This document shows, one piece after another, positions 27 through 33,111 of a stretch of DNA of 41,368 bases (the stretch's first letter is position 1; each line of letters begins with the position of its first letter). Source of the DNA: a virus; the IMG/VR virus record IMGVR_UViG_3300036806_000012, positions 1 through 41,368 of that record. One strand, written 5' to 3'. The position numbers and the translations under genes were made by a program. The notes under the pieces were generated by a model, which worked only from the letters and a program-made list of their open reading frames with translations, did no database searches and had not been told where the DNA came from.

Positions 27-899
27 CTAGCTGACGTAGGTGAACATCCACTCCGTGACGTACGGAGCGTTGAACACGTAGTTGACGTCGGCACGGGCCG
101 TGACGACCTTGCTCTGACCAGTGGTCAACAGCTGCGAGCCACCAGCGTGCAGAACACCGTCGACGTAATACTTCACGCCGGCTTCGGTCGGAATCGTGAT
201 GGTGTGCGCGCCGTCGAAGGTCGGCGCAGTGAGCGTGATCGCGTTGACATCGCCGGCGAACAGAGCGATGACCGCATCTGGCGAAGGCAGTTCGGGATCG
301 CCGGACGTGCCGTACAGAAGATCGGTCAGATTACCGAGCGAATCGGAATCCACCAGCGTCGAATCGATCACGATCAGCGACGTCGGCTGAAGACCAGTCA
401 CAGAGACCGGCGTGGTGGTGAAGTCCCACGAGAACTCAACCGAGGCCGGCGAGTCGTTGATCGAGGCGTAGTCCTTCTCGGATGGGGCCGCGAGGGCTCC
501 ATACACGAGATGGAGCTTGAACCCCAGGTCTGACGTCACGTCGTTACCCACCTTGGTTCGGTAGGACAGGCCGAACGTCTGACGAGGCTGCTGACCGACT
601 TGCACACCAGCCGAAGGAGTGTCGGTGCCGTCACAGGCTCCGAACTCATCCGGATAAGTGTACGCAGTGATGGTCCCGCCGAAAGTCTCCAACGACAGAA
701 GGTTGGAGTACTTGATGTTGTCCGCGTACGTCGGGTTCGGGGCAGCACCGTCAGGCTTCTCGTTGACGGCAGTCAGCCCGTTCCAGGCGAAACCGGTGTC
801 GTAGAGGGCAGTTTCGGAGTTCAGCGGGTAGAGAACCCCGTGATCGACCCCCGTCTCGAACCTCTTGTTGCCGGTGTCATCCCAGACCAGTGCGGTCAT
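27..899 (-). CDS. Major tail (tube) protein
   Basis: This 290-residue protein matches, from memory, the siphovirus major tail protein family that forms the hexameric rings of the tail tube. Recognisable stretches are WNGLTAVNEKPDGA (39-52), YADNIKYSNL (58-67), ETFGGTITAYTYPDEF (71-86), TFGLSYRTKVGND (108-120) and YGALAAPSEKDYA (133-145). The last ~70 residues, from TAPTFDG on, form a separate small beta domain ending WMFTYVS. This domain is also found at the C-terminus of the capsid protein in this window. The ATG follows GGAGGATTC. The gene lies 8 nt after the tail terminator, at the end of the head-to-tail gene run, as expected. The role is well supported by family and position. Confidence 0.9.
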   Translation of the reverse strand: MTALVWDDTGNKRFETGVDHGVLYPLNSETALYDTGFAWNGLTAVNEKPDGAAPNPTYADNIKYSNLLSLETFGGTITAYTYPDEFGACDGTDTPSAGVQVGQQPRQTFGLSYRTKVGNDVTSDLGFKLHLVYGALAAPSEKDYASINDSPASVEFSWDFTTTPVSVTGLQPTSLIVIDSTLVDSDSLGNLTDLLYGTSGDPELPSPDAVIALFAGDVNAITLTAPTFDGAHTITIPTEAGVKYYVDGVLHAGGSQLLTTGQSKVVTARADVNYVFNAPYVTEWMFTYVS

Positions 900-907
900 G
901 AATCCTC

Positions 908-1213
908 CTAGAAGTAAACGTCGTAAATGTCATGGTTGAGATTTTGTGTTGTGAAATGCCTGACGTACTTCGTCAGAGGCAAGTCGGCAACCTTGTCAGG
1001 TATCGCACTGTCTGGATCGCGGTCGATAACAGTTACCTGATAGCGGAGTTTCTTGTTATAAGCAAAATTGTCCGCATAATCGACGCTCTGAAAATCCCGG
1101 TTATAGACGATTGCCGGATACACCATAGTGACGTTTGGCGGAGGCTGGAAATATATGCTTACGCCGTCCTGGAGATCTTCGAGAACGGTTTGAAACTCAA
1201 GCCTCGTTCCCAT
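908..1213 (-). CDS. Tail terminator / tail completion-type protein
   Basis: The 101-residue product resembles the small proteins that cap the tail tube and join it to the neck. It contains VSIYFQPP, YPAIVYNRD, an SVDYADNFAYNKKLRY stretch and an NLNHDIYDVYF end, all typical of this family in siphoviruses of Gram-positive hosts. The open frame extends upstream to a TTG at 1228, but the ATG at 1213 has a better-placed GGAGA site. This start gives a 17-nt overlap with the preceding connector gene. It sits between the connector and the major tail protein, the usual place. The family assignment is from memory of sequence patterns, not from a search. Confidence 0.75.
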   Translation of the reverse strand: MGTRLEFQTVLEDLQDGVSIYFQPPPNVTMVYPAIVYNRDFQSVDYADNFAYNKKLRYQVTVIDRDPDSAIPDKVADLPLTKYVRHFTTQNLNHDIYDVYF

Positions 1214-1529
1214 TCCACAGATCTCCAATCGTCAATATGAGTCTCGGTCTGCGTACCTCGACGTTTGTAACTGTCCAGCGATGCCCCTCCCACTCGAGGT
1301 ACCTGATGTTCACAAAGTTGGCGTAGGCGTCAGCATCTGCCAAGAGACTGAACGAGTTCTCAAGGGCGAGGTTAACGTTAAGCTCTGGCGGAACTTGCAC
1401 CGGAGGCTCCAGACGTCTGGCATTTCGGACGACATCACCATAATACATCTTCTCGGTAATGACTTCTTGCCAGACGCCTGGAGTTACTTCAGTGCTAGCT
1501 GCATAGCCTACGGCTCCGTAGAACCGCAT
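1197..1529 (-). CDS. Head-tail connector protein
   Basis: A 110-residue protein directly downstream of the capsid gene and overlapping the tail terminator. It starts MRFYGAVGYA, has a central WEGHRWTVTNVEVRRPRLILTIG segment, and ends in NGNEA. Small proteins of this size and position in HK97-like phages are neck or stopper components that attach to the portal ring. The sequence looks like a beta-rich small connector, and I recall similar proteins in the same position in related phages. A precise family name is not certain. Confidence 0.7.
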   Translation of the reverse strand: MRFYGAVGYAASTEVTPGVWQEVITEKMYYGDVVRNARRLEPPVQVPPELNVNLALENSFSLLADADAYANFVNIRYLEWEGHRWTVTNVEVRRPRLILTIGDLWNGNEA

Positions 1530-1537
1530 GGGCTACC

Positions 1538-3535
1538 TCAGCTGGCGTTGCGGGTGAAGGTCCAGTCCTCGTTCGCGTCGTCGGCGAAGGCGTAGGTGGA
1601 CGCCGCCTTGGCGCGGTAGTGGACCGACTCGCCCGCAGCGATCGCGGTCTGGGCGCCTGCAGTCAGCGCAGAGCCCTCGGAACCGTCGTCCGGATCCACC
1701 ACCACGTAGGTCACGTGGGCAGTGGTCGGAATGGTGCCGACGCCAGTGGTCTTGACGAAGGTCGGAGCGGTCGGGTTCGGCAGCATGCCGCCGGCGCCGG
1801 TGAACTCCGTGATCGTCAGGGCGCCCTTGTACTTGGTCATGGCACCCGAAACGCGAGTCTCCATCAGGTACTTGAACTGGTTGTAGTCGATGTCGAAGAA
1901 GTCGAACATCGAGACCTGGCCGCCCTTGTCGGCGCCGATGGTGTAGTCCGACAGGTTGACGATGATCCCGATCAGGCCCGGGGTCTGCTCCAGCGCCTCA
2001 CAGGTGACGACTCCGCTGACGCCCAGGGCGGCAGACAGTTCCTGCGTGGTCCCGTACAGACGCCGGCCCAGCGTGTCCTTGGCCAGCAGCATCTTGGACA
2101 GGTAGATCATGGTGGTGTACAGGACCGGGTTCCCAGAGCCTCTGTAGTACCGCATGGCCGTGACGACCTGGTCCACGATCTCATCGGCGGAACTGGCCGC
2201 GTCGCTCAGATCGATGTTCAGGTTGGTCACGTACATGTCGTCGTCGCCGAAGATCGGACGCACGTTGGTCGCGTTGATCTTGTCCGTGTCGTCGACCTCG
2301 CGGCCGTCACCGACGAGAATGGCCCTCGCGAGCTCCTCGTCCAGCATGACGCGCATCTCGGTCTGCAGCCACGTCACGACATCGAAGTCGGTGATGTCGA
2401 TGATGTCATCACGGTCCAGCTTCTGCTTCTTGTAGATAGTCTGCGGAAGGGTGATCCGCTTGGCCACCGCGAAGAACTCCTCCTTCTTCAGGTCGCCCTT
2501 GATGTAACCCTTGGCCCGGGCCTCGTCTTGGGTGATGTCCGCGGTCCAGCTGCGGATGCGCGAGAACGGAGTCTTGCGGGTGCCGCTGAGAACGCCGGCG
2601 ACCCACTGAGTCCTCCGCGAGATGAACTCCGGGGTGTCGGTGACGGCCTGGTCGTACGGGAACAGGGTGCTGATGTCGTCGATGCCGTGGGCGAGCGCGT
2701 ACTCCTCCACGGCCTCCTTCAGCGAGCCGCCCTTACGGGCCGCGGCGAAGATCTCCTGAGCGTCGGAATGCGACAGAGTGTTTCCCGCCGCCTTCGGGTC
2801 GTTTCCGTTCTTGCTGTCGAAGACGTTACGGGTCACTGGGTCTTCGCCCTTCTTGTTGGTTGGGATGTTGGCCGGGTCGTCTCCCCCCGTGCTGCCCTGC
2901 TGAACGGTGGCTCCGACAAGAGCGTAGACGACGCTCTTCTGCTCATCGCTCAGGGTGTTGAACACGTCCTCGACCGACGGTCCACTTCCGTCAGGCGAAG
3001 AAGGTGCAGCAGGCATCGCTGCCTTGGGACGCATGACGATCTGTCGCGGGCCAGGAACCGTCGTGCTCATGCTTCCGTGCTCGAGGAGTTCGCCGCTGTA
3101 GATCACGGCCTCTTCCTCGGAAATGGTCGGAACATCGTCTCCGTGGGCGATGTTGATGTTCTCGATGAACGCGCCGGGATTCGCGCCCGACAGAACCAGA
3201 CTGACCTCACGGATGACCCCGTGAACGACGTTCTTGGCCTGCTGAACCAGCTGGTTCGCGTAGATAGAAAGCGAGTTGATGTCCTTGTGAAGCACGAGCG
3301 CCTTGGCCTGCTGGCCTGCAGGGGTGTCATTGAAGAAACCCTCGCCCCAGACGCCGTCATCACGGTTGTGGAGCTGGACGTGGCCCAGAACGTTGTCGGG
3401 CGCGTCGTGCTGGTGCTGCCACACGAGAGGGACCTGCTGCTTGTCGTTGCCCTTGAAGGCGTGAGCCATGATGACCCGGCCGTCGGAGCACTTGATCCCA
3501 CTCTTGGTGACGTAGCCAGAGAAGTCAGCTACCAT
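1538..3535 (-). CDS. Prohead protease-major capsid protein fusion
   Basis: This 665-residue polypeptide carries two functions usually encoded by separate genes. Residues ~1-135 are an S78-type prohead serine protease: VWQHQHD (38-44) supplies the histidine region, INSLSIYA (86-93) the serine, and REVSLVLSGANPGAFI (109-124) is the conserved following strand. A linker rich in P, S and G (~150-230) resembles a scaffolding delta region. Residues ~250-590 are an HK97-fold major capsid protein, with EISxR-like and LDEELARAILVGDGRE (404-419) segments. The last ~80 residues are a beta domain ending DWTFTRNAS, related to the C-terminus of the major tail protein. The start is ATG at 3535 and overlaps the portal stop. 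Protease-capsid fusions are known in some phages. No frameshift or internal stop is visible. Confidence 0.9.
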   Translation of the reverse strand: MVADFSGYVTKSGIKCSDGRVIMAHAFKGNDKQQVPLVWQHQHDAPDNVLGHVQLHNRDDGVWGEGFFNDTPAGQQAKALVLHKDINSLSIYANQLVQQAKNVVHGVIREVSLVLSGANPGAFIENINIAHGDDVPTISEEEAVIYSGELLEHGSMSTTVPGPRQIVMRPKAAMPAAPSSPDGSGPSVEDVFNTLSDEQKSVVYALVGATVQQGSTGGDDPANIPTNKKGEDPVTRNVFDSKNGNDPKAAGNTLSHSDAQEIFAAARKGGSLKEAVEEYALAHGIDDISTLFPYDQAVTDTPEFISRRTQWVAGVLSGTRKTPFSRIRSWTADITQDEARAKGYIKGDLKKEEFFAVAKRITLPQTIYKKQKLDRDDIIDITDFDVVTWLQTEMRVMLDEELARAILVGDGREVDDTDKINATNVRPIFGDDDMYVTNLNIDLSDAASSADEIVDQVVTAMRYYRGSGNPVLYTTMIYLSKMLLAKDTLGRRLYGTTQELSAALGVSGVVTCEALEQTPGLIGIIVNLSDYTIGADKGGQVSMFDFFDIDYNQFKYLMETRVSGAMTKYKGALTITEFTGAGGMLPNPTAPTFVKTTGVGTIPTTAHVTYVVVDPDDGSEGSALTAGAQTAIAAGESVHYRAKAASTYAFADDANEDWTFTRNAS

Positions 3536-4859
3536 TTTGACTCTTCACTCCTTGCGTTATAGCCGGGACTTCCTTGAATGGCAACATGTGTTGCGGCGGC
3601 GGTCTGATTGCCGCTTTGGCAGCTGCCTTGGCTGCATTCGCAGCAATCGTCGGATCAGTCTGGTCGATCGGAAGGTTCTTGTTAAGAAGTCTGTCTGCCT
3701 TCGGATCTGCGGACGGCCTGAAACCGATAATACTTCGCATGTCGTTGGAACTGAGAATTTCATTCCTTGTGAACTTGTCCGCAATAGCGGCCAGATCCTT
3801 GACAGGAACCAGACTGAATGGATCTCTGATGTAGATGATGGACTGTCCTTGCGAACGAGCCGTCTTTGTCAGGAACGTCATGATCAACGATTCCGTAAGG
3901 GCGGCAAGGATAGGCTCAACCGTTCGGTTGTAATAGCCCAGCATCGTGTTCTCGTCGGCAGTTCCGTTCATGATCTCGGCCGTCAATCCAAGCTGACCGT
4001 AGAGCATGTTCGTCAAGTACTCGACTTGCGCCATCAGATTGTTTTCGGCTGGCCTGTTCAGCTGTGTGACTTTCTCAGTACCGTCGACATAAGCAATGCC
4101 ATACTGAGAACCCTTGAGCTGAAACTCGATCTCTTTGAGCCTCTTGTCAGCTTCAATTCTTCGAGCCTCCGTCTTGATGACGTAGGGAAGCTGAATGATA
4201 AGATCGAGTTGTCCTGAAGCGCTTTGCTCATCTACAGCATCCAGAAGATTGAGCTTTCTGAGAAGACGCTGAAGTGTAGAGCTTGGCTCATTCATGACTG
4301 TGTAAAGAGGATTCTCTACGATGGCGACCATGCTCTTAGGAACGAGTACGTCTTCCTGAATCCCTTTTTGAGGACTGTCGTTGTAGGCCCTGACGAGAAC
4401 GTGCCTCGGATACCACTGCATGACACGGCCAACACGCATGGTGTTAACGTCGTACCCACCAGTAGTCAGAGGGTTCAACGTCGTATCGACAGGAAGAATT
4501 GCAGCAACGCCTTCATCAAAGAGCGTCTGGACAAGGTCCTGCCTGAACTGACGAGCACCTTGATCGATGTTCGCCTGAACGTTCAGACAATCATTAAGAC
4601 CGCTACTTATGTCTTCCTGATACTGCCTGTTATTGTCCAGACGAACATGACGAAGTGGCACTGCTGCCACGTCAATCGCAATCCGCGTGTAGATCGCAGA
4701 CACGATCGTCTTTTCGCCTGCGAACCGCAAACGTCGTCTTTCAGGACGAGTCGTGTAAGACGTTCCTAGATCTGACGAAGTTGCCAGTGTTTCGGGATGC
4801 TCATCCTGGAACCTGAACGCATTCCAAGCACCCTTAATGCGGTCTGTGAGTTTGCTCAT
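3525..4859 (-). CDS. Portal protein (HK97 type)
   Basis: A 444-residue portal subunit, twelve of which form the DNA channel at one capsid vertex. The N-terminal half has AIYTRIAIDVAAVPLRHVRL (56-75), typical of HK97 portals. The centre has YPRHVLVRAYND and a VPKSMVAIVENPLY stretch. The C-terminal half has YGQLGLTAEIMNGTADENTMLGYYNRTVEPIL, the conserved clip/stem region of this family. The ATG follows a GGGGGTGG site, and the stop overlaps the protease-capsid start. The gene order large terminase, head fibre, portal, protease-capsid fits packaging and head assembly. The length is close to the usual 400-500 residues. Confidence 0.92.
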   Translation of the reverse strand: MSKLTDRIKGAWNAFRFQDEHPETLATSSDLGTSYTTRPERRRLRFAGEKTIVSAIYTRIAIDVAAVPLRHVRLDNNRQYQEDISSGLNDCLNVQANIDQGARQFRQDLVQTLFDEGVAAILPVDTTLNPLTTGGYDVNTMRVGRVMQWYPRHVLVRAYNDSPQKGIQEDVLVPKSMVAIVENPLYTVMNEPSSTLQRLLRKLNLLDAVDEQSASGQLDLIIQLPYVIKTEARRIEADKRLKEIEFQLKGSQYGIAYVDGTEKVTQLNRPAENNLMAQVEYLTNMLYGQLGLTAEIMNGTADENTMLGYYNRTVEPILAALTESLIMTFLTKTARSQGQSIIYIRDPFSLVPVKDLAAIADKFTRNEILSSNDMRSIIGFRPSADPKADRLLNKNLPIDQTDPTIAANAAKAAAKAAIRPPPQHMLPFKEVPAITQGVKSQNGS

Positions 4860-6907: not shown

Positions 6908-7507
6908 CTAGCCAGCTTTCTTGAGCAAGGCGTCGATTCCTTCGGCCGCATATCTATTGGCGTAGGCCGCAGCTTGCTGCTTGGCAACGCTTCCACCGAC
7001 CTTGAGAAGCTCGTTCACAATCGCGTGACCAGCGCTCACCTTTGCAGGATTGAGCTGTCCATGCTGCTTTTCGAGATTCAGTCTGGTCACCAAGTGTTGA
7101 AGATCCTGGTTGGTCAAAGCAGAAGTTCCGTGTTTGCTCACTGTGGCCCTGAGCTGATGCGCTCTTGCCGCGTCAGGTGAGACGTGACTGGACGCCTGTC
7201 CCGTTCCAGGCTTTCGAACTCCCCATCTCATTCCCTTGATACCGAAATGAGCAAGGAACTCTTCGAAGTTGAAATGCTTCAGAGAACCGTCAGAGTTCCA
7301 GTTGTCTGGAATCTTACTGGAAAGATTCAGAGCATTGGCTCGCTTGATGATGTGCTTCCTGATCGAGTCGTGTCCTGCGTTTCCACGTCCTACTGCGTGA
7401 ATTGCATCGTCAAGTTCCTGAGCATTTCTGATGTAGTATGAACCGTCAGGCATTGCAACGCCTGATTTGGAGAACATCTTGCGCTGCGCTGCCGTGACAT
7501 CAGCCAC
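6908..7507 (-). CDS. Conserved phage head-region protein with a GIKGMRWGVRK motif
   Basis: A 199-residue protein starting at GTG (7507) after GAGGGGAGG. Residues ~5-70 have the pattern KSGVAMPDGSYYIRNAQELDDAIHAVGRG followed by HIIKRANALN, a small domain often fused to phage head or protease proteins (DUF6582-like, from memory). HFGIKGMRWGVRK (86-98) is a short motif widespread in phage head-region proteins (DUF7211-like, from memory). The rest is Ala/Gln-rich helix. I cannot assign a biochemical activity. Its place between the fibre and the large terminase suggests a virion or assembly role. Confidence 0.65.
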   Translation of the reverse strand: MADVTAAQRKMFSKSGVAMPDGSYYIRNAQELDDAIHAVGRGNAGHDSIRKHIIKRANALNLSSKIPDNWNSDGSLKHFNFEEFLAHFGIKGMRWGVRKPGTGQASSHVSPDAARAHQLRATVSKHGTSALTNQDLQHLVTRLNLEKQHGQLNPAKVSAGHAIVNELLKVGGSVAKQQAAAYANRYAAEGIDALLKKAG

Positions 7508-7520
7508 GGGTTACCTCCCC

Positions 7521-10500
7521 TCAGACTGGTGTGAATATGAATAGATTCGAAGCTGTCGGACGACCTTGACGTCCTTGAAGTCGCATCTTGTGCATTGAGA
7601 CTGAACCGAAGCCTGTGATCTTCTCATACGCAGATCCAGACAAGCTCATCTTATGCATACGAACTGAGCCGGAACCTCTTACAATCTCGATTCCTGTCCC
7701 AGACAAGCCCATCTTATGAAGTGCAACTGATCCTGACCCAGAAACGGATTCTGTACCGCCCGAACCAGAAAGACCCATCTTGTGCATACGAACTGAGCCT
7801 GTGGCTGTTAGCTTCTCATGACCAGACGCAGACAATCGCATCTTGTGCATACGAACTGAGCCGGTAGCCGTGAGCTTCTCGTGACCAGATCCAGACAAGC
7901 CCATCTTGTGCATGCGAACTGAGCCTGTGGCTGTGAGCTTCTCAAATCCAGATCCAGACAGGCCCATCTTGTGCATCGAGATTGAACCGGTGCCAAACAA
8001 CGGAGCTGTTCCAGCTGCAGACAAGCCCATCTTGTGCATCGAGACAGAGCCTGAACCGCTTACAACATTACCGACAGTTCCGCCACCAGACAGGCCCATC
8101 TTGTGCATTGAGACAGAGCCTGTACCATATAGAGGCGCAGTTCCTGTTCCAGACAAGCCCATCTTATGCATAGCGACAGAACCTGAGCCAAGCAAGGGTG
8201 CTTCGCCAGTTCCAGACAGACCCATCTTGTGCATTGAGACAGAGCCTGTACCTGAAATCAGTTCTTGACCCGTTCCAGACAAGCCCATCTTGTGCATCGA
8301 GACAGAACCAGATCCCGAAAGCTTCTCGAAACCGGTTCCGCTCAGGCCCATCTTGTGCATGGCAATTGAACCAGTGCCATACAATGGAGCTATACCCGTT
8401 CCAGACAAGCCCATCTTATGCATAGCGACAGAACCTGTCGCCGTGAGCTTCTCAAATCCTGAACCAGACAGGCCCATCTTGTGCATTGCAATGGATCCAG
8501 AACCAAACAACGGTGCTGTTCCAGTTCCAGACAAGCCCATCTTGTGCATCGAGACAGAACCTGTTGCTACAAGCTTCTCATACCCAGAACCAGACAGACC
8601 CATCTTGTGCATTCGAACTGAACCAGAACCGAACAGGGGAGCATGACCAGTTCCGGAAAGGCCCATCTTGTGCATGCGAACTGAGCCTGTGGCTGTGAGC
8701 TTTTCGAACCCAGAACCAGACAAACCCATCTTGTGCATTCGAACTGAAGGAGGACTGAGAGGTCCATTCTCAGAGAAACCGACTACATCGATCCAGAACG
8801 GACCGTCGCTAGTCGCGCTGTTCTGGTTTCCAACATCGATCCGCCCAATCACGTCGCCGAAAGTGATGGACGAGAAATCTTTGACAACAGCAGGAACCGC
8901 GTCTTTTTGATGCGTATACACTTCGACGTGAATCGTTCCTGCGACGGTGTCAATGTATCCTTCGATTCGGAAATACGTGTTGTTGGCTATCCCGCTAAGG
9001 ATTGTTCCAACTCCAGTAAACCCCGAACCATAAGAAGCGGTAATTGTATTGGCTGTGACTAGCGGAGAGAAGAGATGTGTACCTGAACTATTCCGGAATG
9101 CGAACGGACGGAACGCAGGCGTTGCTGCTGCCGTTATAAGCTGGTCACAACGGAAATACATCTTCGTTCTTGTATAGCTAAGAGATCCTGCGAGGGTCCA
9201 CTGACCAGAAACAACCCCTGCAGTTCCCGCTGTGGCTACCTTGAGAGCCATGGCGTCAAGACCGAGATTGGTATTGTCAGCTGCAAGAGTTGCAGACGCA
9301 GGAATAACAATCGCGTCGAACTTTCTTCCGGATACTCCACCAGTATTGCCTGTAGTGAGAGTCGTTCCGTTACTCAAGCCAGAGAAATCGTTCCACAGAT
9401 CTGGAGCATGGAGAACGCCAGTAATAGCGATACCCATTTTGTGCATGGCTACCGAACCGGTGCCTCCGACGAATGCTACGCCAGATCCAGACAAGCCCAT
9501 CTTGTGCATGTGAACTGAGCCTGTGCCTGTAACCATTGAACTAACAGTTCCAGACCCACTGAGACCCATTTTGTGCATCGCAACAGAGCCAGTGGCTGTG
9601 AGCTTCTCGTGACCAGTTCCACTCAGGCCCATCTTGTGCATACGAACTGAGCCTGTGGCTGTGAGCTTCTCATGACCAGTTCCGGAAAGACCCATCTTGT
9701 GCATGGCAATTGAACCAGTGCCTGTAACAAGAACAGGAGGAATTGCGCCAATTGCACTGACAGCCACATCGCCGAAGTACAGATCGCTTCCTACAGAACC
9801 GAAGTCAGAAGCACCAATCCAGAATTGATCTGCAGCAGCATGAGTATTGACGTTGGTTCCGCTGAGAGTTTCTGCTGGTGTACCAGATTCAGGGTTCGTG
9901 TAGATTTTGAGTGAGAAACTTCCAGTAGTAGCATTACCCACGAAGTCAAACTCAAGTCTTACGTCCGCACCTGTAATGACTGTGGTTGATGTAGCAAGAC
10001 CTGCGAATGTGGAATCCAGGACCACTATATGACCTGACGTGTCCACATACGCACCACAGCACATCGTGAACGTGCTGTTGTCATCCCACGCCATAATTCT
10101 TGCAAGTGCTGTTGGAGGTGACGCCATGTAGATGTAAGCATCAGAGTAGCCGTCTGTCGGTGCTACGTGCCATGCACAGTAAGCAACGCTAGCACCACCT
10201 ACAGCATGTATGCTCGTAGCTTTCCCGTTGAATGTATGACTATTCGAGAAAGCAAGAGAAGAGCCCGCTCCTGAAACATTCGCCTCAGCAAACTGATCTG
10301 GACCGCCTGTGTTTGCAGTCGTTACAGTAGATGCGTTAGTTCCAGTACAACTGTTCTTGAACTCTGATTTAGGAAGCGGTCTGACTGCTATGACTATGGC
10401 AGAGTTTCTTGCTTGAGATGTATCGAACGCACTGAACGTAGCTACATCTTCTGATGCTGTATTGTTCTGTCTGAAAGCAACAGCGGCATCACAGCCGCCA

Positions 10501-11069
10501 ACTGCATCCTGGCTAATTCCAGTTCCAACAAGATTACTATAGTTTGTTGGAGCTGTTGAACCTATACCTGTAAATGAGCCAGTAGTAGAAGTTTCGCCAC
10601 ATCCACCCAGAGCAATCCACAAAGTATCATCAGCTCCCCAGCTTGGAACAAGAGCCGCCGGGTTTGCAGCTGAAGACGTGCCATTCGCAATTGCAGTGTG
10701 TTCAGGAGGTGTAGTCGCATGCGCACCAGGAATCGACAGGATAAACATAACTGCGTCGCCAGTTACAGTCGCAGCTTGTGTGACAGCGATCGTTCCTGTC
10801 TCAGATCCCGTAGACCACTTATATGCCATGCCGATGGACATGTTGGATGTAGTTCCTCCAACATCTCCGAACTCAGTCCAGCCAGCACTCCAGCCGGAAA
10901 ACACTGCTCCGGCTGAGGCGCTCGACTGATAGACAACACAAACAGCGATCAGCAAATCGCCCGAGTTTTTGGTAAGACCAGAAAGATTCGGGAAAGTACG
11001 AGTCGCCGTTGCATTAGCCTGCACATTATGAACAATGCGACCACCTGTAGGGATGGTGGGAAACGTCAT
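7521..11069 (-). CDS. Large repeat-rich virion fibre / adhesin-like protein
   Basis: This 1182-residue protein has an N-terminal beta domain (~1-230). Next come a lectin/LamG-like beta domain (~235-445, with SEFKNSCTG, a CAWHVA region and FWIGASDFG), five short repeats, a second similar beta domain (~560-770) and 19 more repeats. The repeat unit is about 21 residues, GSVxMHKMGLSGtG plus a variable tail of about seven, giving 24 units in all. The composition (Gly, Ser, Thr, Val) and the repeats point to an elongated beta structure on the virion, such as a head or tail fibre that binds the host surface. It lies among head genes, not after the tail tip, so a head fibre is possible. No enzymatic motif is visible. 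Confidence 0.7.
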   Translation of the reverse strand: MTFPTIPTGGRIVHNVQANATATRTFPNLSGLTKNSGDLLIAVCVVYQSSASAGAVFSGWSAGWTEFGDVGGTTSNMSIGMAYKWSTGSETGTIAVTQAATVTGDAVMFILSIPGAHATTPPEHTAIANGTSSAANPAALVPSWGADDTLWIALGGCGETSTTGSFTGIGSTAPTNYSNLVGTGISQDAVGGCDAAVAFRQNNTASEDVATFSAFDTSQARNSAIVIAVRPLPKSEFKNSCTGTNASTVTTANTGGPDQFAEANVSGAGSSLAFSNSHTFNGKATSIHAVGGASVAYCAWHVAPTDGYSDAYIYMASPPTALARIMAWDDNSTFTMCCGAYVDTSGHIVVLDSTFAGLATSTTVITGADVRLEFDFVGNATTGSFSLKIYTNPESGTPAETLSGTNVNTHAAADQFWIGASDFGSVGSDLYFGDVAVSAIGAIPPVLVTGTGSIAMHKMGLSGTGHEKLTATGSVRMHKMGLSGTGHEKLTATGSVAMHKMGLSGSGTVSSMVTGTGSVHMHKMGLSGSGVAFVGGTGSVAMHKMGIAITGVLHAPDLWNDFSGLSNGTTLTTGNTGGVSGRKFDAIVIPASATLAADNTNLGLDAMALKVATAGTAGVVSGQWTLAGSLSYTRTKMYFRCDQLITAAATPAFRPFAFRNSSGTHLFSPLVTANTITASYGSGFTGVGTILSGIANNTYFRIEGYIDTVAGTIHVEVYTHQKDAVPAVVKDFSSITFGDVIGRIDVGNQNSATSDGPFWIDVVGFSENGPLSPPSVRMHKMGLSGSGFEKLTATGSVRMHKMGLSGTGHAPLFGSGSVRMHKMGLSGSGYEKLVATGSVSMHKMGLSGTGTAPLFGSGSIAMHKMGLSGSGFEKLTATGSVAMHKMGLSGTGIAPLYGTGSIAMHKMGLSGTGFEKLSGSGSVSMHKMGLSGTGQELISGTGSVSMHKMGLSGTGEAPLLGSGSVAMHKMGLSGTGTAPLYGTGSVSMHKMGLSGGGTVGNVVSGSGSVSMHKMGLSAAGTAPLFGTGSISMHKMGLSGSGFEKLTATGSVRMHKMGLSGSGHEKLTATGSVRMHKMRLSASGHEKLTATGSVRMHKMGLSGSGGTESVSGSGSVALHKMGLSGTGIEIVRGSGSVRMHKMSLSGSAYEKITGFGSVSMHKMRLQGRQGRPTASNLFIFTPV
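7556..8748 (-). repeat. Tandem 63-bp coding repeats, 19 units
   Basis: Nineteen consecutive units of about 63 bp encode the C-terminal MHKMGLSGtG repeats of the fibre protein. The core (plus strand cccatcttgtgcat) is nearly invariant, while the intervening segments alternate between a few versions (xEKLTAT, xAPLFGS and others). The units keep the reading frame, so unequal recombination would change protein length in steps of 21 residues. Confidence 0.95.
9418..9732 (-). repeat. Tandem 63-bp coding repeats, 5 units
   Basis: Five units of the same family lie between the two lectin-like domains of the fibre protein. The last-translated unit (MHKMGIAITG) is degenerate. Their near identity with the larger block suggests duplication or gene conversion between blocks. 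Confidence 0.93.
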
Positions 11070-14691: not shown

Positions 14692-17343
14692 CTAACGATG
14701 AAGAGCTGAGTTGAGTGTGCTAACTGGTATGCCTAGTGAATCAGCGATCTCTGCTTGTGTGTAACCAGAAGCAAGTCTTGCCTTTGCTATTGCTAGCTTA
14801 GATGGTGTGACCACAGTTGCTGCACGTGGTGTAGCCAGAGTACGAACACGATCAGCATCAGCATTGTCAAGGATCTGACTAAGCTTGTTAGTACTGATAG
14901 CACCAGACTGTATGGCCTTCCACTCTTGATCGCTAATCATTATCTGCTGCTTCTTGGCACCAACACGATCACGAGCAGCAGTCAGAGCCTGACCCTTAGC
15001 CTTCTTAAGATCGGCGGCATCCATAGAGGGGTTGCTATGTTGCTTGGCGGATACCACGGCGTTTGCTATTAGCTGGGCCTGCCGTTCAAGGGGCTTGTTC
15101 TTAAGGGCCAGGTTAAGCTTCGCATTGAGAGAAGCTACATCAGAAGCGTACGTTTCCTTGGCTGATGGTGAGTACCTCAGACTACCTGTAGTGATCGCTG
15201 ACTTACGAGCCTGGTTAGCCAGAGCCTTAAGACTATTGGAGTGCTCAGCATAGATGTTCTCTATAGGCATACCACTAGACAAAGACCTGGCATCCTTGGC
15301 TTCTGCCAGCTTAGTAGACGGTACTGTACGAACTATAGTTCTTCCTCTTCTGTCTACGAAAGTCTCGCCAGTTCTCTCGAAGACCTTAGCACCAGTCTTA
15401 ACGTCGACAGGTCCGCCTCTAGATGCAGGCCTGAGCTTTCGTTCTGGAACACGAATCTCTGAGCTTGCCTTTGAGACAATGGTCGACGCCCCTGCTAGAC
15501 GACCAGTACTGCCACGACCCTGGTACTTCTCTTTCAGTGCTGCTATTCCGTTGTCTATATAGGACGCTCTGTAGTTAAGACTGTGCTTCTCAGCATCAAT
15601 CACAACCATTGAATGACGAACTGCTCGAGCAAGCTCGTCAGGCTTGGCGCCCTTAATAGTCATGTCTGTAATCAGGTTTGAGACGTCACCCATTTGCTGC
15701 TGCTTAGATCTAGGCGACATCACCTTCATTCCTGGATAGGCAGGATAAGCCTGCTTAGGATCGAAGTTCTGAAGACCCTTGAGTGGCGACGAAGTCTTTA
15801 CTTCACGTCTCGTATTCGGTATAACGAGAACTGTGTCGCCATCGAAGTCTGCTCCTGACAGACGTTCAGCAACCTTAGGATGAATGCCTATTGCATCGAG
15901 AGCATTGCCTAGTGTTGCTCTTGCTTCTGGATGTTTGTTATTGACAGTGACTTCTGGAATCTCGAACGTTCCGCCATGAGGAAAGCGGATCAGTGCAACC
16001 TTCTCACCATTCCTGTAATTAGGCGCATAGACTTCGCCTTCTTTCAGGGATTCGATGGGAAGAATTACATGAGTCCCTTGCCGTGGGAGAGCAGCAGCCT
16101 TCAAGTGAACTGATGCATAATCCGCACTGTCAGCGTACGATTCGAGAAGCTTCTTCTTAACTACAGGATTCGTCAAACGGTTAATCTCATTTAGCTCATC
16201 TTGACGAGAAGCTAGTGCGAGATCGAGCTGACGCTTAGCCAAAACAGTACTTTGCTTTGAGAGAACTTGACTAGACAAGCTGCGAGACCAGTCTTTCCAG
16301 TCTCCTTCTTCATTGACTATGTTCATAGGTGAAAGATGTTCTTTCCCATCTTTACCTGTATAAGTCTTCTGCCTGACTGTGGAACCGAAAGGATTCTCTT
16401 CATCCTTCTGAAGTTTCATGGCGTCGAGCTTGTTACCTGTGTCAGACTTGTTTGTGTTGAACACAAGATCTACTCCAGCAGGCAAGTCGTTCCTGTACAT
16501 CGCCATGCCTTTGAGATAATGTGTTCCATCCACAGCAACTCTGACTTGTGCATACCGAGACGAACCCAGAGATACGTCATCTACGCCAGGACGAACGAAG
16601 ATAACGCCATCTGCATTAGCACCACCATCTTCAGCATATCTGACTGAGATACGCTTTGAGTTTACATTGGTGGGGGGCTTAATTTTGGTATAGCTAAGGC
16701 CACCGTCTTCACTGTAAGCAGCAACCGTCTTGATGTTTCCTGGATTCTTGACGATGTCCACGTACTTCGTTCCTGGTGCAGCAAGGACCTTGATCGTTGT
16801 CTTCTTGCCAGTCCCTAGCTGATCAACCTGAACATTGTGAACTTCATAACCTCGTTCCCGAAGCATGGCTACAGACGTCGAGAGTTTGGTCGAACTGATT
16901 CCAAGGTGATTCTCAGTACCAGTTCCTATATCCAGAAAACTTCCAGAATCCACTTTGCTCTGAAGAAGGTCTGCTGTAGTGACCAGAATGTCGCGCTTCT
17001 GCGAAAGGGCAGGATTGAGAAGAGTCCTGACAGTTGACTCGTTAAGACCCATCCTTTGCCCAATTGCAATATTGGACATACCTTTGTCTTTGAGCCTCAG
17101 AGCTTGCGTAGCATTAGAAGCGTGAATTTCATTCTTTGCTATCGCACGAGCAGCTCTGAGTGCAGTTGTCGTAGTTCCGAAGCCCTTAGCTATCTCTACT
17201 TCAGACAGACCTTGAGCTCTGAGACTGTCGACATGTCCAAGGAAACCACGGCTTCTTTCCTGAACTGTTCCGCCAGATCCCCAAGGATAGCGGCCAGACC
17301 GGCGAAGAATACCGTAGTGCAACAATTCGTCAACTGTTATCAA
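14692..17343 (-). CDS. Single-chain RNA polymerase-like protein with DPBB ADFDGD motif and HTH segments
   Basis: An 883-residue protein. IHPKVAERLSGADFDGD (487-503) closely parallels the beta' active-site segment (HPLVxxxxNADFDGD) of cellular RNA polymerases, whose three Asp residues bind the catalytic Mg. RFPHGGTFEIPE (453-464) occupies the place of the beta' RxPTLHR strand. An earlier beta region (~235-300, with HYLKGMAMYRNDLPAGV) could be the second barrel supplying a Lys. Two N-terminal helix-turn-helix segments (GLSEVEIAKGFGTTTTALR, 45-63; GMSNIAIGQRMGLNESTVR, 88-106) and one at the C-terminus (YTQAEIADSLGIPVSTLN, 861-878) suggest DNA binding. The N-terminal HYGILRRSGRYPWGSG is a known but uncharacterised phage-family signature. 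The start is TTG, overlapping the nuclease stop. The closest known class would be YonO-like two-barrel polymerases. Polymerase activity is inferred. Confidence 0.7.
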   Translation of the reverse strand: MITVDELLHYGILRRSGRYPWGSGGTVQERSRGFLGHVDSLRAQGLSEVEIAKGFGTTTTALRAARAIAKNEIHASNATQALRLKDKGMSNIAIGQRMGLNESTVRTLLNPALSQKRDILVTTADLLQSKVDSGSFLDIGTGTENHLGISSTKLSTSVAMLRERGYEVHNVQVDQLGTGKKTTIKVLAAPGTKYVDIVKNPGNIKTVAAYSEDGGLSYTKIKPPTNVNSKRISVRYAEDGGANADGVIFVRPGVDDVSLGSSRYAQVRVAVDGTHYLKGMAMYRNDLPAGVDLVFNTNKSDTGNKLDAMKLQKDEENPFGSTVRQKTYTGKDGKEHLSPMNIVNEEGDWKDWSRSLSSQVLSKQSTVLAKRQLDLALASRQDELNEINRLTNPVVKKKLLESYADSADYASVHLKAAALPRQGTHVILPIESLKEGEVYAPNYRNGEKVALIRFPHGGTFEIPEVTVNNKHPEARATLGNALDAIGIHPKVAERLSGADFDGDTVLVIPNTRREVKTSSPLKGLQNFDPKQAYPAYPGMKVMSPRSKQQQMGDVSNLITDMTIKGAKPDELARAVRHSMVVIDAEKHSLNYRASYIDNGIAALKEKYQGRGSTGRLAGASTIVSKASSEIRVPERKLRPASRGGPVDVKTGAKVFERTGETFVDRRGRTIVRTVPSTKLAEAKDARSLSSGMPIENIYAEHSNSLKALANQARKSAITTGSLRYSPSAKETYASDVASLNAKLNLALKNKPLERQAQLIANAVVSAKQHSNPSMDAADLKKAKGQALTAARDRVGAKKQQIMISDQEWKAIQSGAISTNKLSQILDNADADRVRTLATPRAATVVTPSKLAIAKARLASGYTQAEIADSLGIPVSTLNSALHR

Positions 17344-17900
17344 GCTATCCCCCCCATCTTGAGGTTCTCGATGTGCTGGTCGAAAACTACGATCTTACTC
17401 ATTATATGAGCGATCACGTCTACGCCAGGATTTTTAATCTCTACTACGTCATTCTGGTAAATACGCAACTCTATCTCAAGCTCTCCTGGCTTGAAGGCAT
17501 ACTCAAGACAGAACAAAGCTGCGTAGATCTCTAGCTGATGCATAGAACCTGGAATGATGCCTGTCTTCAGATCGTGGATTCGAAGAACGTTTCTTGCAGA
17601 GGCGATCGCGTCACAAGTGCCGTAACAGTTGACTGAATAGAACAGCACTTGTTCAGTAGACATGCGATAGCCGATTGCATCGTTCACATACATGTTAAGC
17701 GTTTTGCTAGATCGTGGAAGCTTGACACCGAGTCTGATGGCGTTATGCGCAAAGGCGTGAAGTTCAGTGCCTCTCCTGGCTGCCTGTGCGTTGTTATACG
17801 ACTCTGTCAGTTTGTCGGCGTCGTAGTTGATCCAGTGATACTTGCTGGCGCTTAGAAATGCGTGCTGGCCCACGAGATTCAAATGCGTGTTGAAGATCAT
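17340..17900 (-). CDS. PD-(D/E)XK superfamily nuclease (RecB/Cas4-like)
   Basis: A 186-residue protein with the exonuclease layout of the PD-(D/E)XK fold: RGTELHAFAH (43-52), YGTCDAI (93-99), LRIHDLKTG (106-114, the D-xK core) and HQLEIYAALF (121-130, the conserved Q-x-x-x-Y helix). It probably processes DNA ends during replication or recombination. It overlaps the VRR-NUC gene by 107 nt in another frame and the RNA polymerase-like gene by 4 nt, so the three are translated from one message. No Cys cluster for an Fe-S centre is apparent. Confidence 0.75.
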   Translation of the reverse strand: MIFNTHLNLVGQHAFLSASKYHWINYDADKLTESYNNAQAARRGTELHAFAHNAIRLGVKLPRSSKTLNMYVNDAIGYRMSTEQVLFYSVNCYGTCDAIASARNVLRIHDLKTGIIPGSMHQLEIYAALFCLEYAFKPGELEIELRIYQNDVVEIKNPGVDVIAHIMSKIVVFDQHIENLKMGGIA

Positions 17901-18168
17901 TGAGAACTTGTTCCTCGTTGCCCGGATGGATGAATGCCGCGAAAGACATCGCGTCCATCAAATCCACATAGTTGGCTTGATTTGGCTGGACCTTAGCCGT
18001 AGCGCTAGCTTTGCATTCCAGTGCTGCCCAGTTCTGTCTCCAGAGGATCAGCAAATCCGGAACGCCTTGAAGATAGTTAGGATCGTTTCTCAGAATCATG
18101 CATCCAGGGAACATTCTTCTGAGCTTTCGAATAATGTATGCCTGGAATCTGCTTTCTTTTCCAGTCAT
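17794..18168 (-). CDS. VRR-NUC domain nuclease
   Basis: A 124-residue protein covering a complete VRR-NUC domain: an N-terminal Glu (KESRFQAYII), LRNDPNYLQGVPDLLIL (26-42) and WAALECKASATAKVQPNQANYV (47-68). These give the E, D and ExK catalytic residues and the trailing Q. Phage VRR-NUC proteins are structure-specific or end-processing nucleases, usually near helicases and polymerases, as here. The ATG is preceded by AAGAGAGGAAGCG. Its C-terminal third overlaps the next nuclease gene in a different frame. Confidence 0.85.
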   Translation of the reverse strand: MTGKESRFQAYIIRKLRRMFPGCMILRNDPNYLQGVPDLLILWRQNWAALECKASATAKVQPNQANYVDLMDAMSFAAFIHPGNEEQVLNDLQHAFESRGPARISKRQQVSLDQLRRRQTDRVV

Positions 18169-18252: not shown

Positions 18253-18262
18253 GATCGTGAAG

Positions 18263-18308
18263 AAAAAACAGAGGAATGCCGCTCGCTGATGAGCATGCGT
18301 TCTCTGTT
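18263..18308 (-). terminator. Attenuator-like terminator at the promoter start point
   Basis: On the minus strand AACAGAG (18308-18302) pairs with CTCTGTT (18273-18267), with an inner GCTC/GAGC pairing, and is followed by an uninterrupted run of T (to 18263). The hairpin begins about where transcription from the upstream TATAAT (18320-18315) should start. It would give an RNA of about 45 nt unless read through. Confidence 0.55.
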
Positions 18309-18310
18309 CC

Positions 18311-18339
18311 TTCTATTATAGTCCATGTTTTTACGCCGA
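18311..18339 (-). promoter_or_regulatory. Promoter-like motif, copy 4
   Basis: The minus strand reads TCGGCGTA, 3 nt, ACATG, 3 nt, TATAATAGAA. This is the most divergent of four copies of a conserved element. It is the only clear promoter candidate ahead of the nuclease and RNA polymerase-like genes. A -35 TTGACA at normal spacing is absent. Confidence 0.6.
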
Positions 18340-18588
18340 GTTGGACATTCGGCGCTGTGTTAGACAATTTCCAATCGGAAGGACATTTTGACTCTCGTGT
18401 GATAATGTGCGATATTTTTCGGTCTACCTCGCTGCTGTACGCTGTGAGCGTTTCTGGGCTCCCCTATATTATATATACTACTACTACTACTACTATAATA
18501 AAATAATTATCACATATATCACAAGATAGCTTTGAGCTGCGAGTTTACCAAGATAACCCAATCTCAAAACCACCTCGTTGTGATAACT
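18340..18588. other. AT-rich intergenic region with repeats; candidate replication origin
   Basis: There is no credible gene between 18169 and 18588, the longest gap in the window. This part holds the octamer TGTGATAA/TTATCACA at 18398-18405, 18507-18514 and 18579-18586, plus a one-mismatch copy at 18516-18523; two of the copies are preceded by CTCG. A (TAC)n microsatellite lies at 18476-18495 beside a run of TATAT. Repeated short sites next to an AT-rich segment between replication genes are what a phage origin would look like. They could also be operator sites. Confidence 0.45.
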
Positions 18589-30303: not shown

Positions 30304-30960
30304 TCAGACAGGCGGTTCCCAGTCAGTGCTCTTCCGGCGCATGGCGTCCAGAAGCTGAGCCCTGGTCATCGCAGTGAGCTCGTTGTCAGTGGGATGCCTG
30401 TAGGCCCACGCCACGAGTTTTCCGTTCTTGATCCTGGGCTCCTTCAGACCAGTCATCTTGTCCTGTTCGGCTTCGGTTGGCCCGACATCGATGGAAGCGT
30501 TTTTGACGATCGGCCTTCCGGGCCAGGCTCCCTGCTTGTCCAGGCCGTGCGGATCGGGCAGACCTGCCGCCACGATCGCCTTCACGACGTCGGGCTCACT
30601 GGCAAGGTCCTTGGGGACCACGCCGTTGATGAACTCCGCCGCAAGACCCGGGTCCGTTAGCAGCTGGCCGTAGAACTGATCGAAGGCCGGCGATGTCAGG
30701 AACTCGTTCGAGATCTCATCGGACTTCACGAACTTGCTCCCAGTCTCACGATGGCCGTAGGACTTGGAGATGATGAACTTGAAGGTGTCGAGGATCTGCT
30801 TCGGGTCTCCGGACTCGGTGATGGCCTGCAGCTTGGCCGACATGCCTCCTTCCTCAGCCAGTTCCAGGTCGATCAGCTCCAGCTTGCTGAGGTGAAAGTA
30901 GTGTTCCTCTGTCACCTCCTCGTCGTCGAAGTTGGTGTACGTGATGGACTGCCTGATCAT
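30304..30960 (-). CDS. Conserved phage protein, possibly tail-assembly-chaperone-like
   Basis: A 218-residue protein with MIRQSITYTNFDDEEVTEEHYFHLSKLELIDLELAEEGG, DPKQILDTFKFIISKSYGHRETGSKFVKSDEISNEFLTSPAFDQFYGQLLTDPGLAAEFINGVVP. The N-terminal ~115 residues match a common phage family of this form (TYxDFNGxxxxExFYFNLtxxEL...ILKSYGxxSxDGrrFxKSxELSxxFxxTxAYxxLFxELAtD...FINGIVP). That family is sometimes annotated as a tail assembly chaperone. The C-terminal ~100 residues are extra. It is not next to the tape measure here, so the role is uncertain. It overlaps the DUF6275 gene by 4 nt. Confidence 0.6.
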   Translation of the reverse strand: MIRQSITYTNFDDEEVTEEHYFHLSKLELIDLELAEEGGMSAKLQAITESGDPKQILDTFKFIISKSYGHRETGSKFVKSDEISNEFLTSPAFDQFYGQLLTDPGLAAEFINGVVPKDLASEPDVVKAIVAAGLPDPHGLDKQGAWPGRPIVKNASIDVGPTEAEQDKMTGLKEPRIKNGKLVAWAYRHPTDNELTAMTRAQLLDAMRRKSTDWEPPV

Positions 30961-31310
30961 TCGGTCCCTCCCGCAGGGATCTTGAAGTTGTTGAGCTTCT
31001 TGTATACGTCCATGTAGAACTCTTCTTTGTGACCGTTGAAAGTCACTTCCCAGAGGATGCCGCGGACGACGCCTGAAGCTATGATCGTCTTCCAGTTCCC
31101 GAGAATCTTCGAGAACCAGACGATATAAATCATGTCAGGCGTGAGTTCTGGAGACTTGATGACGTCCCTGTGATCGTTGTAGTTCGCAACGACCATCGCC
31201 TTCGCCCTCTCCATGAACTTCTCAGCCTCGACGGGCCTGTTGGCTCGCCTTGCCTGAGACGGAGTCATGAGAACCGGAGATGGAGTTACGGCTACTATTC
31301 CCTCTGGCAT
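30957..31310 (-). CDS. DUF6275 family protein, copy 2
   Basis: A 117-residue protein with DMIYIVWFSKILGNWKTIIASGVVRGILWEVTFNGHKEEFYMDVYKKLNNFKIP, homologous to the 92-residue protein at 21379-21657. It has about 25 extra N-terminal residues, rich in Pro and Val, before the domain. The ATG is preceded by AGGAGATATTT. It is the first gene after promoter-like copy 3 and so opens the long operon that leads into replication. Confidence 0.75.
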   Translation of the reverse strand: MPEGIVAVTPSPVLMTPSQARRANRPVEAEKFMERAKAMVVANYNDHRDVIKSPELTPDMIYIVWFSKILGNWKTIIASGVVRGILWEVTFNGHKEEFYMDVYKKLNNFKIPAGGTE

Positions 31311-31336: not shown

Positions 31337-31400
31337 AAAAATGCTAGACCACGAGTTTTGTGTATTATCTCGTGATCTTCGATTCGCTTAATGGCGAATC
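31337..31400 (-). promoter_or_regulatory. Structured leader with terminator-like hairpin
   Basis: Directly after copy 3 of the promoter-like motif, a perfect hairpin GATTCGC-6 nt-GCGAATC covers 31381-31400. A second stem of nine pairs (31369-31377 with 31347-31355) is followed by TAGCATTTTT. The ribosome binding site of the DUF6275 gene comes next. The arrangement resembles an attenuator. Confidence 0.5.
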
Positions 31401-31601
31401 TGGTTTCACTATAGTCCGTGTAATTCCTGCGAGCTCCTTTCTCATCTGGATTACATCGGATTTTGGCATCATTTTGCCAGTGAACTGGAAGCACGCAAGA
31501 CGAGTTCCTCTTGACACGATGTAGGGCCACATCACCCAGAACAGGAAATGACCCAGATGCGGGAAGAGTTTCCTGATCCAGCTAGAACTTGCCGTAATCA
31601 C
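31365..31601 (-). CDS. Possible small membrane protein (78 aa)
   Basis: From a GTG at 31601 the frame reads ITASSSWIRKLFPHLGHF, then LFWVMWPYIVSRGTRLACFQ, and ends SPLSESKITR. One transmembrane span is plausible. It overlaps the end of the DUF6353 gene by 20 nt, and its last ~20 codons run through promoter-like copy 3, which argues against part of it. No clear ribosome binding site is seen. I keep it as tentative because otherwise 31434-31581 would hold nothing. Confidence 0.35.
   Translation of the reverse strand: MITASSSWIRKLFPHLGHFLFWVMWPYIVSRGTRLACFQFTGKMMPKSDVIQMRKELAGITRTIVKPDSPLSESKITR
31405..31433 (-). promoter_or_regulatory. Promoter-like motif, copy 3
   Basis: The minus strand reads TCGCAGGA, 3 nt, ACACG, 3 nt, TATAGTGAA. 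It is identical in plan to copies 1 and 2 and lies about 95 nt upstream of the DUF6275 ATG. It would drive the operon that includes replication genes. Confidence 0.65.
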
Positions 31602-32615: not shown

Positions 32616-32643
32616 TATGCCTCTCCTAAAACACGGTGTCGGG

Positions 32644-32671
32644 TTCACTATAGGGCATGTAAATCCTGCGA
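32644..32671 (-). promoter_or_regulatory. Promoter-like motif, copy 1
   Basis: The minus strand reads TCGCAGGA, 3 nt, ACATG, 3 nt, TATAGTGAA, about 30 nt before the ATG at 32615. A TTGCTC lies 17 nt upstream of TATAGT, but this -35 is not shared by the other copies. It follows a terminator-like hairpin at 32696-32735. Confidence 0.65.
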
Positions 32672-32695
32672 GCAAAAGTTGAGAGGCTATGTAAA

Positions 32696-33062: not shown

Positions 33063-33082
33063 GTCAGTCCTCTCTTTTGACT

Positions 33083-33110
33083 TTCACTATATGACGTGTT
33101 TTTCCTGCGA
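33083..33110 (-). promoter_or_regulatory. Promoter-like motif, copy 2
   Basis: The minus strand reads TCGCAGGA, 3 nt, ACACG, 3 nt, TATAGTGAA. It lies directly between the holin stop and the 99-residue gene. No TTGACA-like -35 at 17 nt is present (TGATTC instead). Confidence 0.65.
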
Positions 33111-33111
33111 A

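Follow-up and report, generated by a model that had tools for sequence, protein, structure and literature searches.

The window encodes a protein whose predicted fold and invariant residues argue strongly for a two-barrel RNA polymerase. We lean towards the reading that it is a head-packaged, injected, single-chain DNA-dependent RNA polymerase that starts transcription at early promoters of the phage's own. The window is the whole stretch of viral DNA that was analysed (41,368 nucleotides; IMG/VR record IMGVR_UViG_3300036806_000012).

Family, predicted fold and catalytic residues

The features of the gene are as follows.

14692..17343, minus strand: RNA polymerase-like protein, 883 aa, PHROG 4291 member (phrog_4291, phage records, AlphaFold2 model)
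17272..17319, minus strand: tag HYGILRRSGRYPWGSG near the N-terminus, residues 9-24, a candidate signal for head packaging (invariance, disorder, other carriers)
17119..17265, minus strand: N-terminal helical, helix-turn-helix-like segment 1, residues 27-75 (AlphaFold2 helices 27-43, 48-54, 59-86)
17008..17106, minus strand: helix-turn-helix 2, residues 80-112 (Pfam HTH_28 E 2.7e-4; AlphaFold2 helices 91-98, 102-108)
16309..16671, minus strand: residues 225-345, predicted region of the beta-like barrel, in which Q266, R268, K278 and K310 are invariant (QDE-1 alignment from its residue 683, conservation)
15814..16101, minus strand: residues 415-510, predicted region of the beta'-like barrel, which contains both R453-P455-H456 and D499-F-D-G-D503 (QDE-1, msRNAP beta'/Rpb1, gp64 hhalign)
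14695..14805, minus strand: C-terminal helix-turn-helix, sigma region 4-like, residues 847-883 (Sigma70_r4_2 E 3.9e-9, HTH_23 E 1.4e-8)

The open reading frame starts with a TTG codon at 17343 and, with the stop codon counted within its coordinates, encodes a single chain of 883 residues, as the sequence-only reading of this DNA had it. That reading placed the gene between replication genes and late genes, and this position was borne out. The protein matches phrog_4291 with 1309.5 bits over residues 3-882, and the PHROG 4291 proteins of actinophages and Lactococcus phage 1706 belong to the same family over their full length, with nothing structural that differs. Database labels of PHROG 4291 are "RNA-dependent RNA polymerase" or "HTH protein", and the majority of the phage records listed annotate the homologue as a helix-turn-helix protein. 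By tblastn, the family was detected in 250 of 50,697 phage records, 249 of which cover at least 80% of the length (Arthrobacter, 95; Gordonia, 55; Streptomyces, 54; Lactococcus, 13; Siphovirus contigs, 12; Curtobacterium, 7; few others). It is also present in bacterial assemblies, mainly those of Lachnospiraceae, Oscillospiraceae and other Clostridia and including a Hungatella hathewayi chromosome, where the copies are presumably prophages. When the protein of phage 1706 was used as the query against IMG/VR, it matched nothing except itself.

PDB sequence searches with the protein or with the profile of alignment A2 (86 rows; relatives 41-80% identical to the window protein) returned only helix-turn-helix and chance matches, so that a comparison of folds was needed. 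The Pfam family PF05183 (RdRP) reached 16.9 bits, under its cut-off of 23.8, and only over residues 490-589. The AlphaFold2 model of the protein (pLDDT 84.6, pTM 0.70) has QDE-1 and the P23-45/P74-26 RNA polymerases as its best Foldseek matches. According to VIA-align, model residues 225-717 align with residues 683-1186 of QDE-1 (Z 15.8), and the same core aligns with maize RDR2 (Z 15.4), in both cases at about 14% identity; gp64 of Thermus phage P23-45 gave Z 14.0, and the largest msRNAP subunits (beta'/Rpb1) gave Z near 11 over about residues 414-618. The model thus places residues 225-717 on a two-barrel polymerase core; judged by these alignments, this agrees with the double-psi fold that structure prediction had been expected to give.

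A segment resembling the beta' active-site strand, HPKVAERLSGADFDGD, and a preceding RFPHGG had been pointed out from the letters of the DNA; they occupy residues 488-503 and 453-458, respectively. D499, F500, D501, G502, D503, R453, P455 and H456 are invariant in 86/86 rows of A2, most of which were chosen for containing DFDGD. The conservation of DFDGD is not due to chance, since it is kept in 80/80 of the first relatives, which were retrieved with other peptides. Moreover, hhalign with gp64 alone puts GADFDGD opposite GADYDGD (E 0.0026 over the DFDGD barrel). Q266, R268, K278 and K310 are also kept in 86/86 rows, and K299 in 81/86, so that K278 and K299, both in the predicted upstream barrel, are candidates for the active-site lysine proposed to lie at about residues 242-300. 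Taken together, the model, the structural matches, the invariant residues and the hhalign result make a strong case for a two-barrel polymerase.

Three helix-turn-helix segments had also been proposed. Those at residues 80-112 and, at the C-terminus, 849-883 were recovered by profiles, and the N-terminal pair at 27-60 by predicted structure only, segment 1 (27-75) having no Pfam profile match of its own.

The N-terminal tag and the head module

The tag had gone unnoticed in the sequence-only reading, as had the repeated promoter-like motif described below. H9, G11 and S16-G24 (SGRYPWGSG) are invariant in all 86 sequences of A2, where the invariance of the GRYPWGSG part is by construction in the rows that came from the tag search; in alignment A1, whose 80 relatives were found with other peptides, that part is invariant independently of such a search. 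The tag, which lies within the first 25 residues, is disordered in the AlphaFold2 model. A segment that is invariant yet disordered suggests a short motif with a binding partner.

Searching IMG/VR at the DNA level for GRYPWGSG yielded 120 ORFs, 102 of which also contain DFDGD. Those without DFDGD are mostly truncated at contig ends or frameshifted, as in L092, where the polymerase is split between frames, and some are different proteins. L143 encodes a 376-aa non-polymerase protein with the tag HFGIAKRSGRYPWGSG between terminase (phrog_9) and portal (phrog_12), and its sole family match is to residues 9-40 of PHROG 4291. In L111, a row of adjacent small ORFs carrying the polymerase-type tag (157-3801) follows the terminase, and two of them are GNAT acetyltransferases. 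The segment therefore moves between proteins, and its other carriers are found in the head module. From this gene position we infer that the tag of the polymerase would be a head-packaging signal.

The window itself contains a further tagged gene.

6908..7507, minus strand: 199-aa protein with DUF7211 tag HFGIKGMRWGVRK, adjoining the terminase (Pfam DUF7211 E 2.3e-11, pattern)

By eye, HYGVKGMKWG of DUF7211 looks like the same signal as the polymerase tag (H-x-G...G-x-x-WG), a resemblance that is supported by the carriers in L143 and L111; PF23847 (DUF7211) is not among the Pfam matches of the polymerase at E up to 1. In Gordonia phage Mossy, tags outside the polymerase occur only in genes 13, 15, 16, 17, 19 and 20, with terminase and portal being genes 14 and 21, respectively. 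In the first 20 kb of Arthrobacter phage Nightmare, the part that was scanned, they occur in genes 6 and 8-12, with terminase and portal being genes 7 and 13. A 22-aa tag search identified 240 phage records, with genus counts nearly equal to those of the polymerase search, and the stringent tag pattern is present in 32 of 40 polymerase contigs. Tag-positive contigs without the polymerase (8/21) are mostly fragments that begin near the terminase. Two long ones (G013 and G018) have neither the polymerase nor the promoter-like motif, which fits a link between these two, two contigs being too few to carry weight.

Also in the window, positions 7521-11069 encode a 1182-aa protein that has no family matches and in which a 21-residue repeat (GSVxMHKMGLSGxG) occurs about 17 times.

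Gene annotations point in the same direction as the tag. The polymerase homologue of Lactococcus phage 1706 (GenBank EU081845), orf75, was labelled 'structural protein' by the depositors, and so was orf7, which has two tags and is the only other tagged protein found there; many neighbours are labelled 'unknown'. That isolated ORFs of 1706 (62, 71, 75) carry this label suggests detection of the proteins, with proteomics assumed, rather than homology. The annotation of ReqiPoco6 gp106 as similar to '1706_gp75 structural protein' refers back to this record. The polymerase probably rides inside the phage particle, although its gene sits with nuclease genes, outside the head module, which counts against a virion enzyme.

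Promoter-like motifs and the polymerase operon

The early region of the window contains three copies of a class I motif on the coding strand, at 33109, 32670 and 31431, and one class II copy, at 18338, precedes the operon of the polymerase.

33076..33111, minus strand: early promoter-like site, class I (PWM score 31.0)
32637..32672, minus strand: early promoter-like site, class I, directly before a short ORF (ATG about 32615) (PWM score 41.2)
31398..31433, minus strand: early promoter-like site, class I, before ORF 30957-31310 (PWM score 41.0)
18305..18340, minus strand: class II promoter-like site (score 41.6, matrix trained on other loci)
18262..18312, minus strand: hairpin and U run that immediately follow the class II site (-20.1 kcal/mol, z -3.9)
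17794..18168, minus strand: endonuclease, first operon gene (phrog_93 endonuclease E 2.4e-15)
17340..17900, minus strand: Cas4/RecB-like exonuclease, second operon gene (phrog_3953 exonuclease E 1.3e-76)

Class I, TCGCARGAWTTACAYGnnnTATARTGAGACCCC, is an intergenic motif repeated upstream of early genes in polymerase phages; in the early region of Mossy, the intergenic gaps have CGCAGRRATTACAYGCCCTATAATGA in common. The class I PWM found no sites in shuffled sequences, on the opposite strand or in three control phages. Allowing at most one mismatch, TACAYGnnnTATARTGA has more than 80 sites in 40 polymerase contigs, almost all on one strand within each contig, versus 3 for the reversed pattern. 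When IMG/VR was scanned blindly with CGCAnGnnnTACAYGnnnTATARTGA, at least 120 stretches were retrieved, and among those listed the polymerase is encoded by 30 of the 34 contigs of at least 35 kb and by 27 of the 28 of at least 40 kb. Conservation extends past the letters searched for: in a logo of 160 distinct sites, T precedes CGCA in 96%, G and A follow TATARTGA in about 80% each, and CCC comes next. The logo contains no -35 box, and its upstream part has a weak T-rich stretch.

Using blastn, the 44-nt consensus matched 196 of the 50,697 phage records even at E 10 (Gordonia, 55; Arthrobacter, 55; Streptomyces, 54; Siphovirus, 12; Lactococcus, 8; Rhodococcus, 4; Curtobacterium, 4; Microbacterium, 2; Caudovirus, 2). 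By genus counts, rather than record by record, none of these lies outside the polymerase-bearing set. Late genes of six annotated phages have no strong sites, the sites being clustered in the early region. Distant gut phages required the motif variants TATTATGA and TTTTATGA, and in two of five such phages tested (G030 and G026) neither motif nor variant was recognised. We consider the link between the polymerase and the motif to be good; that the polymerase itself recognises the motif is our inference.

Class II, CTCGCGGGAAAAACATGGATTATAATAGAAGGAGTA, precedes the operon of endonuclease, exonuclease and polymerase, some 960 bp upstream of where the polymerase tag is encoded. Where the window has its endonuclease gene, Mossy has one of the VRR-Nuc type. 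A class II matrix trained on one locus set detected the site in 59 of 90 held-out viral loci, with none on the opposite strand; two matrices combined, at a lower threshold, found it in 62 of 69 prophage loci, with 2 on the opposite strand. The hairpin and its U run begin directly where transcription from the class II site is predicted to start, an arrangement that is enriched in relatives: folding z is below -2 in 36% of 148 loci, compared with 8% upstream. Either an attenuator or a short RNA is conceivable here.

Some minor features accompany the class I sites. Two hairpins (z -5.6) lie 3' of the site at 31398..31433. A terminator-like hairpin directly follows the motif at 6 of 158 class I sites (L419, L422, L399, L428, L351 and L385), as if a short RNA of about 50 nt were made there. 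A tRNA-like sequence after one Mossy site was not confirmed by ARAGORN. The gut-type polymerase phages G030 and G026 (L450-L452, L459-L461) have many coding-strand copies of the 10-mers AAAGATATTT and TTATATTT.

According to the reading that we favour, the tag would load the polymerase into the head during assembly, together with the other tagged cargo, whose genes lie between terminase and portal, and the enzyme would enter the cell together with the phage DNA. It would recognise TCGCARGAWTTACAYGnnnTATARTGA, which does not have a sigma-70 layout, probably via its own helix-turn-helix ends, and would transcribe the early genes immediately, so that the host enzyme need not act first. Later, it may transcribe its own operon from the class II promoter, leading toward the late genes and perhaps into them.

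Alternative readings and relation to known systems

The strongest rival, which we nevertheless regard as unlikely, is a non-virion phage polymerase that acts on the same promoters but is made after infection, with the host enzyme producing the first transcripts and the tag serving another interaction. The gene is located among replication and nuclease genes in an operon that has a class II promoter of its own, which agrees with this, and gp64 of P23-45, one of the fold matches, is a non-virion RNA polymerase (PMC10770324). The 'structural' label of 1706 orf75, the sharing of the tag with head-module proteins and the occurrence of the motif where the earliest expression is expected all speak for a packaged enzyme instead.

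The TATAAT-like hexamer within the motif means that the host polymerase, aided by a phage activator or sigma-like factor, may read it, in which case the polymerase-like protein would perform primer synthesis, RNA copying or a similar task. Phage 1706 does encode a 'putative positive regulator of sigma', and the closest fold, QDE-1/RdRP, agrees with the database label. We find this quite improbable: besides lacking a -35 box, the motif has the wrong spacing for sigma-70, and a sigma-70 scan of the early region of the window gave no more hits than shuffles and none of the three class I sites. In RosaAsantewaa, the TATAAT box can be replaced by TTAAAT in both classes, and in other lineages it is TATTAT or TTTTAT, while the TCGCA/TACA half is kept. 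Drift of this kind inside a single genome is easier to reconcile with a recogniser encoded by the phage than with a host sigma factor. The motif also occurs in phages of two bacterial phyla and was unseen outside the polymerase-bearing genera. A real caution is that these phages are related, so that motif, tag and polymerase could have descended together within a single clade and have no direct link. PMC7302621 links several of these phage clusters to each other and, in its passages on Microbacterium phages Camille and Count of the same group, mentions neither the tag nor the motif.

The sequence-only reading had proposed a late-transcription enzyme of the YonO class. YonO of SPbeta is a single-chain two-barrel phage polymerase of similar size that transcribes the late genes (PMC5467207), and the gene studied here lies directly before late genes, into which transcription from the class II promoter could read. 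Neither part of the proposal held up well. In hhalign of A2 against one SPBc2 YonO sequence, a comparison in which distant kinship may go undetected, only a 19-residue chance match was found (E 0.1), and the best folds are QDE-1 and gp64. The invariant tag and the early-region motif shift the reading away from a late polymerase: promoter-like sites cluster early, apart from the one before the polymerase operon, and the 1706 homologue is labelled structural. We therefore give a late role little credence. That the protein is a catalytically dead or structural relative, as the 1706 label could also be taken to mean, is very improbable indeed, every catalytic position being invariant in 86 diverse sequences.

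Among known enzymes, QDE-1 and plant RDR2, which are two-barrel polymerases that act in RNA silencing, resemble the window protein in the catalytic core (225-717); to our knowledge, they have neither helix-turn-helix ends nor a tag, and the phage context and promoter motif of the window protein point to DNA templates. Phage P23-45 has two single-chain two-barrel polymerases, the non-virion gp64 and the N-terminal part of the virion protein gp96. The phages studied here differ in having one enzyme, a head tag rather than a tape-measure fusion, helix-turn-helix ends and a recurrent promoter motif. If packaged, the window protein would work like crAss-like phi14:2 gp66 and the N4 virion polymerase, which are injected with the DNA and start early genes. 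The phi14:2 protein was a weak structural match only (rank 31, E 0.032), and the N4 enzyme is T7-like, with another fold. The internal head proteins of T4 (Alt, IPs) are unrelated head cargo with a common capsid-targeting sequence; as short N-terminal cargo tags the two may be analogous, but the sequences differ, and the tag of the phages studied here is not known to be cleaved.

Two-barrel phage polymerases and virion polymerases are already known (PMC5467207, PMC10770324). In the literature searched, which included few subscription papers or bioRxiv preprints, we found no description of the role, tag or promoters of this polymerase, nor of a tag-loaded single-chain polymerase with helix-turn-helix ends and a promoter class in phages of two host phyla. 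A broader claim, which we hold only tentatively, is that siphophages of Actinobacteria and Firmicutes have a widespread head-cargo system, in which a modular tag (HxGxxGMKWG / HYGxxxxSGRYPWGSG) loads into the capsid host-directed enzymes and a complete single-chain two-barrel RNA polymerase with sigma-like helix-turn-helix ends that fires its own promoters without sigma. If true, hundreds of isolated phages that are easy to grow (Gordonia, Arthrobacter, Streptomyces, Lactococcus), as well as many gut prophages, would have host-independent early transcription, a system overlooked behind the labels 'HTH protein' and 'RNA-dependent RNA polymerase'. At roughly 100 kDa, and with a promoter predicted to span about 30 bp, the enzyme would be a model for sigma-free promoter finding by two-barrel polymerases and a means of expressing genes in Actinobacteria.

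The tag would also flag injected effectors in any genome of the group. The tagged cargo includes a 2'-5' RNA ligase-like protein, GNAT proteins and a papain-fold deamidase-like domain. Mossy gene 17 (L323 11669-13213), between terminase and portal, combines two DUF7211 tags with a GNAT acetyltransferase and the papain-fold deamidase-like domain, and its product is possibly an injected effector. Mossy gene 13 (L323 6619-8340), directly before the terminase, encodes the DUF7211-tagged 2'-5' RNA ligase-like protein, which may be an injected enzyme that serves in RNA repair or anti-defence.
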